From an uncultured Lactobacillus sp. (GTDB lineage: Bacteria > Bacillota > Bacilli > Lactobacillales > Lactobacillaceae): a stretch of 12,453 nucleotides of DNA. Below the pieces are notes generated by a model. The model did no database searches, was not told where the DNA came from, and was given only the letters and a program-made list of their open reading frames with translations. This document shows positions 6,740-11,938 of the stretch, in pieces; position 1 is the stretch's first letter; each line of letters begins with the position of its first letter. A program made the translations under genes and the position numbers. The stretch is from positions 1-12,453 of the forward strand of contig CAMJXI010000018.1 in the NCBI GenBank assembly GCA_946409675.1, in the 5' to 3' direction.

Positions 6740-6747
6740 AAAAATTG

Positions 6748-6775
6748 AAACACTCGTGAGAGTGTTTTTTTTTTT
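6748..6775 (+). terminator. Intrinsic terminator after groEL
   Basis: AAACACTC (6748-6755) pairs with GAGTGTTT (6760-6767) across a GTGA loop. A run of eleven T (6765-6775) follows. It begins 9 bases after the groEL stop and isolates the chaperonin operon from mutS. Confidence 0.95.
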
Positions 6776-6789
6776 GACCAAAACTAGGC

Positions 6790-6795
6790 TATAAT
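6790..6795 (+). promoter_or_regulatory. Candidate -10 box for the mutS-mutL-ruvAB operon
   Basis: A consensus TATAAT lies 38 bases before the mutS ATG, just after the groEL terminator. No proper -35 is seen: TTGACC at 6774-6779 is only 10 bases upstream, and the 17-base position falls in the terminator T-run. A promoter is likely here but its exact form is uncertain. Confidence 0.55.
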
Positions 6796-6833
6796 ATGAA
6801 TAGTCTAATTTTTTAAGAAAAGGGGAATATTTC

Positions 6834-9389
6834 ATGGCCAAATCTGATACCCCCATGATGCAACAATATTACAAAATCAAAGCAGAATATCCGGATGCTT
6901 TTCTATTTTACCGGGTCGGCGACTTCTACGAATTATTCGAAGAGGACGCTGTTCGTGGTGCCCAAATTTTGGAGCTGACCTTAACCCACCGCAACAAAAA
7001 CGTGGAGAACCCAGTCCCAATGGCTGGAGTGCCTCATCACGCAGTGCAGAGCTATATCGATACGTTAGTCGAAAAAGGCTACAAGGTGGCGATTAGCGAA
7101 CAACTAGAGGACCCAAAACTCGCCGAAGGCATGGTTAAACGTGACGTCGTGCAATTAATCACCCCCGGCACGATTATGGACCAAAGAGGTGCGCAGGCTA
7201 AAGCTAACAACTACCTGACGTCAGTGATTACCACCAAACACGGTTTTGGCTTGAGTTATGCCGATCTCGCAACGGGTGAAGTTTATGCGACCGACTTGCC
7301 TGATTATGAAGCAGTCACCAACGAATTGCTCTCTTTGCAAACCAAGGAAGTAGTGTGGTCTGGTTCATTGACCGAAAAGGAAATGGCGCATCTAAAACAA
7401 GCAAATATCGTCGTCTCAAAGCCAATTGAAACAGACGAGCAACAAAGTGAAGTTTCTTTCGTCAGCCAATCGTTGAAGCAAGAGGCACAAATTAAGGCGA
7501 CTAACCAACTCATCGAGTATCTTTTGGCGACGCAAAAACGCAGTTTGGCCCACTTACAGATTGCTAAGAGCTACCAGACGAGTAACTACTTGCAAATGAG
7601 TCACACGGTTAAACAAAACTTAGAGCTGATTCGTTCCAATAAAACGCAGAAAAAATCCGGTTCGCTCTTTTGGCTACTTGATCAAACGAAGACCGCCATG
7701 GGTGGCCGTTTGTTGAAACAATGGATCGATCGTCCCTTGATTTCGCAAAAAGAAATCGAAACTAGACAACAACTAGTTTGTGCCTTAAAAAACGATTATT
7801 TCACGAGTGCCAACATTAGTGATGCCTTGAGTGGGGTCTATGACTTAGAACGACTCACCGGACGCGTGGCTTTTGGTAGTGTAAATGGCCGTGAGTTATT
7901 GCAACTGGCTCGTTCGATTCAACAAGTTCCAGAAATTCTCGCTGCCTTGAAAAAAGCAAATGATCCAGTCTTGCAAGACTTCGGTGCCAAAATTGACCCA
8001 CAAACCCAGATTGCAGAGATGATTTCGACGGCTTTGGTCGATGATCCACCGGTTTCCATTAAAGACGGTGGCGTGATTCGTCGTGGTTATTACGAGCAAT
8101 TGGACCGCTACTATTCTGCGATGACCAACGGTAAACAATGGTTGCTCGAACTCACGACTAAGGAGCGCGAAGCGACCGGGATTAGCACGCTCAAAATCGG
8201 ATTTAACAAGGTTTTTGGCTACTACATTGAAGTGACTAATTCGAACAAAGACTTGGTCCCAACAGACCGTTACGAGCGTAAACAGACGCTGACGAACTCG
8301 GAGCGCTACATCACCCCAGAATTAAAGGAACAAGAATCCTTAATTTTGGAGGCGGAAGCCAAATCAACCGAACTCGAATATCAACTTTTCGTGGAATTAC
8401 GTGAAAAAATCAAGAAGTTTATTCCACAGCTGCAAGAATTAGCCCAGCAAATTTCGACACTCGATGTCCTAGTTTCTTTTGCTAATTTGGCCGAGAAAAA
8501 TAACTACGTCCAACCGGAATTTGTCCCCGAACAAAATGCGATTGAAGTGATTAACGGTCGTCATCCAGTCGTCGAAAAAGTCTTGTTTGATGCTGACTAT
8601 ATTCCAAACGACGTCGTGATGAACGAAGAAACCGAGATTTTCCTGATTACCGGACCGAACATGTCTGGTAAGAGTACCTACATGCGCCAACTTGCTTTGA
8701 TTGTAGTTATGGCACAGATCGGGTCGTTTGTTCCTGCCGATTCAGCCAAGTTACCGATTTTCGACCAGATTTTCACCCGAATTGGGGCGGCCGATGACTT
8801 AATCTCCGGCCAAAGTACCTTCATGGTCGAGATGGATGAAGCTAACCAAGCCTTGATGCACGCAACCAAAAATTCTTTGATTTTGTTCGATGAAATTGGC
8901 CGTGGGACCGCGACTTACGACGGGATGGCATTAGCCGGTGCAATCATCAAATACCTGCACGACCACGTCCATGCGAAGACGCTTTTTGCGACCCACTACC
9001 ACGAATTAACTGATTTAGAAGAAACACTTCCAGGTCTGAAAAACGTTCACGTCGGAGCCACCAAAAAAGACGGTAAACTCATCTTCTTACACAAGGTCTT
9101 GCCGGGACCTGCCGACCAGTCTTACGGGATTCATGTGGCTAAACTTGCAGGCTTACCCGCACGTGTAATCAAGGATGCCAGCGTGATGTTGAAACAACTT
9201 GAAAAAGAAAATATCACCCAGATTAACCCAAAAGCGGCACAACTTGACTTGTTCGTGGAAGACCCAATTGATGAGAGTGTCAAAGATGTGGCCGACCAAA
9301 TCAAGACGCTTTACTTGGCCGACAAATCACCACTTGAAATCATGAACTTAGTTAACCAATGGCAACAGGAATTAACAGACGAGGGTTAA
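6834..9389 (+). CDS. mutS: DNA mismatch repair protein MutS
   Basis: This 851-residue MutS is of normal length. It binds base mismatches and small loops in duplex DNA as a clamp-like dimer and, on ATP binding, recruits MutL. The mismatch-reading Phe-x-Glu is present as F31-Y32-E33 in VGDFYELF. The connector, lever/clamp and core domains cover roughly residues 120-560. The ATPase has Walker [10 protein letters not shown] at 607-615, Walker [11 protein letters not shown] with D686/E687, and the [14 protein letters not shown] signature between them. [11 protein letters not shown] follows. QLDLF at 803-807 near the C-terminus matches the beta-clamp binding pentapeptide, consistent with replisome tethering. 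The ATG at 6834 has AAGGGG 8 bases upstream. The gene stops 3 bases before mutL. All recognisable functional residues are intact. Confidence 0.98.
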
Positions 9390-9392
9390 AAT

Positions 9393-11312
9393 ATGGCAGA
9401 AATTAGAGAACTATCTTCGACAATTAGCGACCAAATAGCTGCTGGTGAAGTAATCGAACGCCCAAGTTCTGTCGTGAAGGAACTTTTGGAAAACGCGATT
9501 GATGCCGGGAGTACCCAAATTAAAATTAAGTTTTTACAAGCCGGCTTAAAAGAAATTGTGATTGAGGACAACGGGAGCGGGATTGCCGCTGACCAAATCG
9601 AACTAGCCTTTAGACGACACGCCACGAGCAAAATTGCGACGACTGCTGATCTGTTCAAAATCCAAACCCTTGGGTTTAGAGGAGAGGCCTTAGCTAGTAT
9701 CAGTGCGGTTGCCCAAGTAGAAATTATTACGAACACGGGTGACATTGATGGCATCGTTGCACGCTTTGCCGACGGAGAACTGCAGGACAAGGAGCCGATT
9801 GCTGCTAAAAGAGGAACGAAAATTATCGTCCAAAACTTGTTCTACAACACCCCAGCCCGTTTGAAGTATTTGAAGTCTGAAAAGACTGAGATCACGAAGA
9901 TTATCGATATCGTCAACCGAATTGCGTTGAGCTATCCCGACCTTGCTATCTCACTTTTTAACGGATCAAAAGAACTCTTAGCGACTTTTGGCAACGGGAA
10001 TTTACAACAAGACTTGGCCCAAATTTATGGCCGCAGCATTGCCCAAAATATGCTGCCATTCAAGAATGAAGATGCTGATTTTCAAATCGAAGGATACATC
10101 ACCGCGCCTGATGTGACGCGGGCCAACCGTAACTACATCTCGATTTTATTGAACGGCCGTTACATCAAGAACTACCAGCTTTCTCGGGCAATTCTAGAAG
10201 GTTATGGCTCATTGTTACAACCGGGCCGCTTTCCCATCGCGGTGATTGCCATCAAAATGGACCCACTGCTGGTCGATGTGAATGTTCATCCAACTAAACA
10301 AGAGGTGCGTCTTTCTAAAGAGGTCACGCTGAGTCGCTTGATTAACCAAACGATTTATCAGACCTTAAGCGACAATCAGACCGCTACTTCTGGGAGTGCT
10401 AAGCTTGCTAATCCAACCGATGAAACGGATTTTGATAATCTGGTCTTTAACCTGACCAAACAAAATCCTGCGGAGATTGGTGAAGATGTTCAGTCTGAGA
10501 TTGTGACAACAAGTTCAACAATAGAACAAGAAATCTCAATCGATGATCAAGACCCTGACCACTCCTTAATTAGTTCGACCTGGCAGAAAAACGTCGGAGT
10601 GCAAAAATTACTGAGTGCTTTTGGCACCAAGACGGGTCGCAGGTTTATTGGTGAAAACAGTAATGATGCGACTCCAGATTTGCAGACGAAGAGTGAGCAA
10701 ATCTCAGAAGCGGGCTTCCCAGAACTAACTTTTAAGGCACAACTAGCTAGCGGCTACCTGGTTTACGACTCCGAGGAGAGCTTTTATCTGCTCGACCCAG
10801 TCGCTGCAGTTGCCCGAATTTCTTATGAGGCACTCTTCCAAAACTTTCAAGAACTCGGTCAAGACCAACAAGCGTTATTAACACCATTGATTTTTGACTT
10901 GAATCAAGTAGAATTTATTAAGTTGAGTGACCACTTAGCAGATTTTGCCAAAATCGGCTTGAACTTCAGCGACTTTGGTCAGACTAGTCTCGTACTAGAC
11001 ACGCATCCTACCTGGTTGCCCGAAGGACAAGAAGAGAAGACGATTCAAAAAATCTTTGATTTGTATCTGGCGAGCACTCACCTAGAATTTAGTGATTTTA
11101 AGAATAAAGTTTTGTTATTGTTAAGCAAAAACCAAGGCCAAAAACAGCACCAAACCTACAATGTTCAGACAGGTCAAGACCTTGTCGAACAACTGGCACA
11201 GTGTCAAAACCCCTACCAGAGTCCCAAAGGCCAACCCGTTATCGTTCGGTTCTCACAACGAGATTTAGATAAGATGTTTAAGAAAATTCAGCGTGGCGAC
11301 TTCACTGTTTAG
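9393..11312 (+). CDS. mutL: MutL mismatch repair ATPase with degenerate endonuclease site
   Basis: This 639-residue MutL couples MutS mismatch recognition to downstream repair. The GHKL ATPase is intact: IAAGEVIERP at 15-24, E30 and N34 in KELLENAIDAG, DNGSGI at 59-64, GFRGEAL at 94-100, and K302 in HPTKQEVR. A variable linker (about 325-445) leads to the C-terminal dimerisation domain. That domain aligns well overall with Gram-positive MutL (SGYLVYDSEESFYLLD, THPTWLPEGQEE, FSQRDLDKMFKKIQ), but its metal-dependent endonuclease motifs are degenerate. DQHAAxER is DPVAAVAR (468-475), the SCKxSIKAN motif is SKNQGQKQH (578-586), and CPHGRP is SPKGQP (610-615). A clamp-binding motif (QALLTP, 493-498) is kept. 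The reading frame is open, so this is not a pseudogene by disruption. The start is 3 bases after mutS, with GAGGG at 9381-9385. The MutL call is secure; loss of nicking activity is inferred from missing ligands. Confidence 0.95.
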   Translation: MAEIRELSSTISDQIAAGEVIERPSSVVKELLENAIDAGSTQIKIKFLQAGLKEIVIEDNGSGIAADQIELAFRRHATSKIATTADLFKIQTLGFRGEALASISAVAQVEIITNTGDIDGIVARFADGELQDKEPIAAKRGTKIIVQNLFYNTPARLKYLKSEKTEITKIIDIVNRIALSYPDLAISLFNGSKELLATFGNGNLQQDLAQIYGRSIAQNMLPFKNEDADFQIEGYITAPDVTRANRNYISILLNGRYIKNYQLSRAILEGYGSLLQPGRFPIAVIAIKMDPLLVDVNVHPTKQEVRLSKEVTLSRLINQTIYQTLSDNQTATSGSAKLANPTDETDFDNLVFNLTKQNPAEIGEDVQSEIVTTSSTIEQEISIDDQDPDHSLISSTWQKNVGVQKLLSAFGTKTGRRFIGENSNDATPDLQTKSEQISEAGFPELTFKAQLASGYLVYDSEESFYLLDPVAAVARISYEALFQNFQELGQDQQALLTPLIFDLNQVEFIKLSDHLADFAKIGLNFSDFGQTSLVLDTHPTWLPEGQEEKTIQKIFDLYLASTHLEFSDFKNKVLLLLSKNQGQKQHQTYNVQTGQDLVEQLAQCQNPYQSPKGQPVIVRFSQRDLDKMFKKIQRGDFTV

Positions 11313-11350: not shown

Positions 11351-11938
11351 ATGTTTGAATATTTAAAGGGCACTATTACAGGAGTTCAACCAGGCTATGC
11401 CGTCCTTGACGTCGCAGGCGTTGGTTACAAACTCTTTTGTCCCCAACCCTACGCATACGAGTTAGATCAAGAAGTGAAAATTTTCGTCGAGCAAGTTATT
11501 CGAGAAAACGAACAGACACTATATGGCTTCTTGAGCTTGTCCGACAAACAACTCTTCCTGAAACTAACTAGCGTTTCTGGTATCGGTCCAAAGAGTGCGC
11601 TCGCCATCATGGCCGCTGAAAACTCTGCGGGACTTGCTAATGCCATCGAAAACGGCGAAGTGAAGTACCTCACACAATTTCCTGGCGTGGGTAAAAAGAC
11701 TGCCTCACAGATTATCTTGGACTTAAAAGGTAAGCTAGAAGGATATGTCACCGCCCAACAACTCGAGTTGAGTGAACCTGAGAACCATGCGCTAAACGAT
11801 GCAATTTTGGCATTAGTGGCATTAGGCTACACCCAAAAAGAAGTTGATAAGATTACACCGAAATTGCGGGATGCAGATTTGGCAAAAGCCGAAGAATACA
11901 TTAAGCTAGGTTTAAACCTCTTATTGAAAAAAGGATAA
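11351..11938 (+). CDS. ruvA: Holliday junction branch migration protein RuvA
   Basis: RuvA is a tetrameric protein that binds and flattens four-way junctions and loads the RuvB motor. This 195-residue copy has normal length. The N-terminal OB fold ([28 protein letters not shown]) is followed by the acidic-pin segment [10 protein letters not shown] at 51-60, with E52 and E54 near the positions of the acidic residues in E. coli RuvA. Two helix-hairpin-helix motifs follow, at 74-84 ([11 protein letters not shown]) and 111-121 ([11 protein letters not shown]). The C-terminal domain III (about 145-195), with [15 protein letters not shown], contacts RuvB. The ATG at 11351 has AGAGG 5 bases upstream. 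It lies 38 bases after mutL with no visible terminator, and 4 bases before ruvB. Confidence 0.97.

Follow-up and report, generated by a model that had tools for sequence, protein, structure and literature searches.

The C-terminal endonuclease domain of the MutL encoded in an uncultured Lactobacillus sp. genome has, as judged by alignment, lost its metal site, and the same loss was found in every member of a clade of 26 genomes that spans two genera of the Lactobacillaceae. On balance we lean towards the view that the protein is a genuine MutL, that its endonuclease was lost in a single event preceding the separation of the genus of this genome from Lactobacillus sensu stricto, and that it was kept as a non-cutting repair protein, the DNA strand being entered at nicks that already exist. 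Bacteria without MutH are generally held to need the nicking activity of MutL (PMC8744996, PMC8034640).

The window, that is, the whole stretch of 12,453 nucleotides analysed, is one entire contig of genome G000, a fragmented assembly of 1.18 Mb that is 66% complete. Its genes follow the order rimI, tsaD, an ABC-F ATPase gene, rex, groES, groEL, mutS, mutL, ruvA and the start of ruvB, and the features relevant to this work are collected in Table 1. The window MutL scored 550.5 bits against the MutL family model TIGR00585 (cut-off 180) and 84.8 bits against PF08676, the C-terminal dimerisation domain MutL_C (cut-off 25), whereas its score with the Gram-positive equivalog model NF000950 was 700.7, under the cut-off of 756. 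In the closed genome of the same genus (G001), a long ORF encoding a putative APC-type permease lies between groEL and mutS (L032:13404-15281, minus strand); it is not in the window.

Table 1. Features of the mutS-mutL-ruvA region, in window coordinates
Feature	Coordinates	Strand	Evidence or remark
mutL, 639 aa: N-terminal ATPase intact, C-terminal domain without endonuclease metal site	9393..11312	+	ORF, profile matches, alignment
GHKL ATPase motif KELLENAIDAG, residues 29-39	9477..9509	+	K29, E30, E33 and N34 identical in 26/26 clade members and 50/50 intact relatives
ATP-lid motif GFRGEAL, residues 94-100	9672..9692	+	R96, G97 and A99 identical in 26/26 clade members
Former DQHAxxERxxYE motif, now DPVAAVARISYE	10794..10829	+	D468 retained; H to V470, E to A474
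Beta-clamp-binding motif QALLTP (Q493 to P498, QxLLxP)	10869..10886	+	Retained in 26/26 clade members
Former SCKxxIKAN motif, now SKNQGQKQH	11124..11150	+	Alignment with 3gab and relatives
Former CPHGRP motif, now SPKGQP	11220..11237	+	C to S610, H to K612
C-terminal KMFK, residues 627-630	11271..11282	+	Retained in 25, 25, 26 and 26 of 26 clade members
mutS, 851 aa, directly upstream of mutL	6834..9389	+	GDFYELF mismatch motif, Walker A and QLDLF clamp motif intact
ruvA, directly downstream of mutL	11351..11938	+	Order mutS-mutL-ruvA-ruvB common to relatives

The C-domain of the window MutL aligned along its full length (E 4e-24) with the solved MutL C-domain of PDB 3gab, which we take to be B. 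subtilis MutL. In this alignment DQHAAQERIKYE corresponds to DPVAAVARISYE in the window, SCKGSIKAN to SKNQGQKQH and CPHGRP to SPKGQP. The metal motif DQHA(x)2E thereby reads DPVAAVAR, and only one of the five B. subtilis-type metal residues (D, H, E, C, H) is left, D468, the other four positions being occupied by V470, A474, S610 and K612. The original prediction, made from the letters of the window, had given these motif changes with exactly these coordinates and residues, and had rightly described the frame as open across mutL.

The clade is composed of G000 and G001 in the window's genus and of 24 genomes in a second genus, g54. In G001, the only other genome of the window's genus examined, the equivalent columns read DAKEAMAR, SVQHGQQQN and SPTGKL, and the site was lost in all 24 g54 genomes, where every MutL was read. 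The H and E of the first motif and the C and H of CPHGRP were missing in 26/26 clade members, whereas 50 of the 51 other MutL proteins read retained the site and the remaining one has a truncated frame. Among 58 relatives with a MutL_C match, the window excluded, 50 were read; 48 of them carried all three motifs, G001 lacked the site and G008 had a truncated frame. The G008 MutL (L042) contains DQHAAQER and its frame stops before motifs two and three, which might represent a separate truncation in another genus of the family or a sequencing fault.

A DNA pattern for DQHAxxER was used to scan 397 genomes of the family, and it was missing in 35 of them: G000, G001, the 24 g54 genomes, seven g29 genomes and two single genomes, whose MutL proteins read DQHGAQER and DQHAAQEK with the remaining motifs intact. 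The site was lost in 26 of the 390 family genomes having MutL_C, belonging to two genera; the 362 pattern-positive genomes were checked for the DQHAxxER pattern alone, except those whose MutL was read. The same pattern was applied to 398 genomes of the class (requested completeness 90 or more), 14 of which were negative, namely G000, two g54 genomes and 11 others. A loss scattered over Bacilli was ruled out, as ten of these 11 have DQHAAHEK and CPHGRP (the two motifs checked) and one is without MutL_C. Across family and class, the 12 other pattern-negative MutL proteins that were read all retain the site. A MutL_C match was found in none of the seven g29 genomes sampled (G029, G087, G117, G143, G167, G190 and G211), two of which are 65-68% complete; from the missing MutL_C we tentatively take g29 to be Oenococcus.

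When 77 MutL N-domains were placed in a maximum-likelihood tree, G000 and G001 grouped with all 24 g54 genomes in one clade (100/100), adjoined by the intact genera g4, g35 and g9. This tree calls for a single loss of the site, before the window's genus split from g54. The original prediction had spoken of one lineage; the loss it described is real, and what had to be widened was its frame, to a single old loss common to two genera. With respect to their names, g54 appears to be Lactobacillus sensu stricto, because the phosphofructokinase of one of its genomes (G398) is 94% identical (18 differences in 319) to PDB 1zxx, presumably the L. delbrueckii enzyme. The window's genus is probably Amylolactobacillus, judging from its position in the tree, its GC content and the small size of the genus. 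The assignment of g54 or g1 to Leuconostoc was also considered and ruled out, the g54 glucose-6-phosphate dehydrogenase being far from PDB 1dpg, which we assume to be that of L. mesenteroides.

Besides the ATPase residues checked, D468, Q493, L495, L496, P498, F629 and K630 were unchanged in 26/26 clade members, in agreement with the earlier argument that an intact ATPase and clamp motif speak for a retained function. Among the altered positions, 470 has V, L, I or K in place of His; 474 has R (23 members), A (2) or K (1) in place of the catalytic Glu, with R in 23 and K in 1 of the 24 g54 genomes; and 610 has D in place of Cys in 24/24 g54 genomes and S in G000 and G001. Of the charged, His and Cys residues that are near-invariant in the g54 C-domain, only R/K474 and D610 are absent from intact homologues, which speaks for a fixed replacement in g54 and against random decay. 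As Glu and Cys are, we assume, neighbours in the metal site of solved MutL structures, the metal may plausibly have given way to an Arg-Asp ion pair in g54.

The lengths of C- and N-domain trees were compared with the topology fixed and one truncated row left out. The C-domain/N-domain ratio came to 2.15 for the clade, against 0.71 for 50 intact relatives, so that, measured against the N-domain, the clade's C-domain changes roughly three times faster; for terminal branches longer than 0.05 the median ratios were 2.36 (17 branches) and 0.69 (50 branches), respectively (Mann-Whitney p 2e-9). The comparison of dN/dS between the ATPase and C-terminal domains, which the original prediction had proposed, gave 0.027-0.123 for the C-domain in nine of ten g54 pairs, dS exceeding 1 (saturated, hence uncertain) in seven of these nine and being 0 in the tenth, while the N-domain gave 0.02-0.05 where defined and above zero; the pair of the window's genus was saturated. 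These estimates indicate that the clade MutL is under constraint, its C-domain less so than formerly. The linker (window residues 340-440) showed dN/dS values of 0.03-0.67 in ten close g54 pairs and of 0.36-0.77 in those intact pairs for which one was obtained, which hints at a more constrained linker in the clade, the pairs compared differing in divergence.

Whether mismatch repair still works in such bacteria can be approached from published mutation-accumulation rates. L. crispatus ATCC 33820, in which mutS is intact, acquires 9.01e-10 substitutions per site per generation with a Ts/Tv of 1.50, as compared with 1.97e-8 and 30.02 in L. acidophilus ATCC 4356, in which mutS is frameshifted and whose insertions and deletions average 1.0 and 1.5 nucleotides; the substitution rate of Lc. 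lactis is 8.36e-10, and total indel rates are 4.57e-10, 6.82e-9 and 1.48e-10 in L. crispatus, L. acidophilus and Lc. lactis, respectively (PMC12691593). Dividing these rates, L. acidophilus exceeds L. crispatus 22-fold in substitutions and 15-fold in indels, and the indel rate of L. crispatus is about 3.1 times that of Lc. lactis, in a contrast between species and not between isogenic strains. The word mutL is absent from the main text of that report. If both lactobacilli carry the clade MutL, as descent from a common loss implies, MutS-dependent repair would therefore be efficient without the MutL metal site; on the rates published for these two species, taken as clade members, we regard it as very likely that this repair is active in the clade.

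Transitions at fourfold sites were also evaluated, as the HKY kappa of genome pairs, pairs within one genus not being independent. Four close g54 pairs had kappa values of 4.3-5.2. Among intact genera, the composition-matched g24 gave 3.3-5.0 (six pairs) and g16 and g21 together gave 4.5-6.4 (five close pairs); g14 and g3, also intact, had no pair inside the filters. At a divergence of ~0.39, six g54 pairs gave 2.65-3.08 and one g29 pair, devoid of MutL_C, gave 6.49 (5.08-7.42). The power of this test is limited, because the close g29 pair (4.06, 2.55-10.52) overlaps all other groups and g29 is separated at one pair only. In the g29 control, the first 40 kb yielded 47 transitions to 10 transversions and 140 kb yielded 178 to 87, or 152 to 49 after removing one gene with more than 25% divergence; the larger set is the one reported. 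The fourfold-site spectrum of g54 is like that of MutL-intact genera and disfavours a long-term mutator.

As for the partner proteins, the mismatch motif, Walker A and clamp motif of MutS were intact in 40/40 loci read, 22 of them from the clade. MutH (PF02976) was detected in 0/26 clade genomes, with a positive control in E. coli, and a second MutL in none, each of the 26, G000 and G001 included, having one MutL_C match. Absences in G000 are weak because this genome is only about 66% complete, whereas G001 is 99% complete. No candidate cutter was recognised beside mutS-mutL on reading 22 clade loci, the neighbours being mostly housekeeping genes or genes with no assigned identity.

Two differences in gene content at this locus are worthy of mention. 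In 14 of 18 MutL-intact loci (L137-L154), mutS is immediately preceded by an ORF of about 270-290 aa, which is missing at that place in 22/22 site-lost clade loci, including the groEL-mutS junction of the window (6740-6833); in the four sequences inspected it resembles, to our eye, a YmdB-type metallophosphoesterase. Moreover, the queuosine genes queA and tgt, which G001 (L032) carries between ruvB and yajC, do not occur at that place in any of 20 g54 loci (L117-L136), nor in 4 of 18 intact loci.

Taken as a whole, we think it fairly probable that Lactobacillus sensu stricto and its sister genus represent a natural third way of mismatch repair, efficient and MutS-dependent, with a non-cutting MutL, no MutH, a fixed Arg-Asp pair at the former metal site, and entry via replication nicks or an undiscovered nuclease. 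In the scheme outlined at the beginning, MutS would find the mismatch, and ATP-bound MutL, tethered to the replisome through the beta clamp, would bring in helicase and exonuclease; the strand would be entered at discontinuities already in the new DNA, such as Okazaki ends or RNase HII nicks, with no need for a cut by MutL or MutH. Entry at existing nicks, which we only infer, would be the most economical mechanism and the most likely one. Natural nicks have been proposed as entry points for MutH-less bacteria (PMC8744996), and in E. coli UvrD is captured close to a break by the sliding clamps that MutL forms (PMC6876574). Some observations go against this explanation. In Caulobacter, which likewise lacks MutH, cells with MutL D472N or with a mutated clamp motif mutate as readily as those deleted for mutL (PMC8034640), which suggests that the cut is needed elsewhere; since D472N acts like a deletion there, the clade would have changed something else or would use another nuclease. 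A further one is the weaker constraint on the C-domain, which partial decay would also give.

It is possible, though doubtful, that repair is active and that a separate, unrecognised nuclease, an analogue of MutH, cuts together with MutS and MutL. A dedicated cutter would be useful, as leading-strand errors are far from natural nicks, and repair is apparently active (PMC12691593) with the known nickers missing. Against such an enzyme stands the lack of a recognised candidate in the 22 clade neighbourhoods read, MutH being the one alternative nuclease family covered by our searches.

We consider it unlikely that repair has decayed and the clade is a long-term mutator lineage in which MutL was kept for another task, for example blocking the recombination of diverged DNA. 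The raised C-domain rate of the clade would fit this reading, as would the related genus g29, without MutL_C in 7/7 genomes; in addition, selection for repair can be weak, because L. acidophilus has repeatedly lost mutS (PMC12691593). Nevertheless, the substitution rate of mutS-intact L. crispatus lies 22-fold under that of mutS-broken L. acidophilus, with a balanced spectrum (PMC12691593), and the fourfold-site spectra of g54 resemble those of intact genera; where divergence is equal, the g54 kappa (six pairs, not independent) is lower than that of the single g29 pair. Of the two outcomes that the original prediction had left side by side, repair retained with incision supplied otherwise is thus favoured, while a mutator lineage is disfavoured by dN/dS values well below 1, by the fourfold-site spectrum and by the published rates (PMC12691593).

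A slightly less credible reading still is that MutL continues to cut, with D468 and new acidic residues, such as D610 in g54, binding metal in a different manner. Consistent with it, D468 is invariant in the clade and D610 in g54, and some P. aeruginosa motif residues are needed in vivo and not for in vitro nicking, according to a title cited in PMC8744996. However, G000 and G001 both have S at position 610, H, C or E occur at none of the four other metal positions in 26/26 members, and metal binding is disfavoured because Arg or Lys replaces the catalytic Glu throughout g54. Lastly, that an assembly or sequencing artefact of the fragmented, incomplete G000 produced the changes has a negligible probability and was ruled out, since closed G001 and 24 g54 genomes share the loss; the original prediction had likewise argued against sequencing errors.

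In the open-licence literature we found no prior report of MutL metal-site loss in Lactobacillus or Lactobacillaceae, although one may be in print elsewhere. If true, culturable species with measured mutation rates would harbour an exception that is natural, ancient and spread through a whole genus, and in them it would become directly testable whether replication nicks alone license and direct repair. The difference published for L. crispatus and L. acidophilus (PMC12691593) could then also be read anew. Lactobacillus sensu stricto is a genus of human and food bacteria.

Among known systems, the clade MutL is like the MutH-independent endonuclease of the B. subtilis type (PDB 3gab, 3kdg and 3kdk) in fold, full C-domain alignment, clamp motif, ATPase and mutS-mutL setting, but the window protein is without all three metal-site motifs and holds one of five metal residues. 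E. coli MutL likewise has no endonuclease and links MutS to downstream factors, its sliding clamps capturing UvrD (PMC6876574); in contrast, MutH was detected in 0/26 clade genomes, and the clade protein descends from a cutting Gram-positive MutL by a loss of its own, with the clamp motif kept. Eukaryotic Mlh1 and yeast Mlh1-Mlh2, an accessory factor (PMC4014439), are also members of the MutL family without an endonuclease motif of their own, but a cutting partner is present there, whereas a second MutL was not found in the clade. Within the same family, standard mismatch repair is likewise reduced in Oenococcus, which lost both mutS and mutL and is described as hypermutable (PMC6498615), while the clade keeps MutS and the rest of MutL. 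Finally, the engineered D472N protein of Caulobacter is likewise a non-cutting MutL in a MutH-less bacterium, and it abolishes repair (PMC8034640); in contrast, the natural version of the clade has persisted while two genera diversified, and repair appears to be active there.
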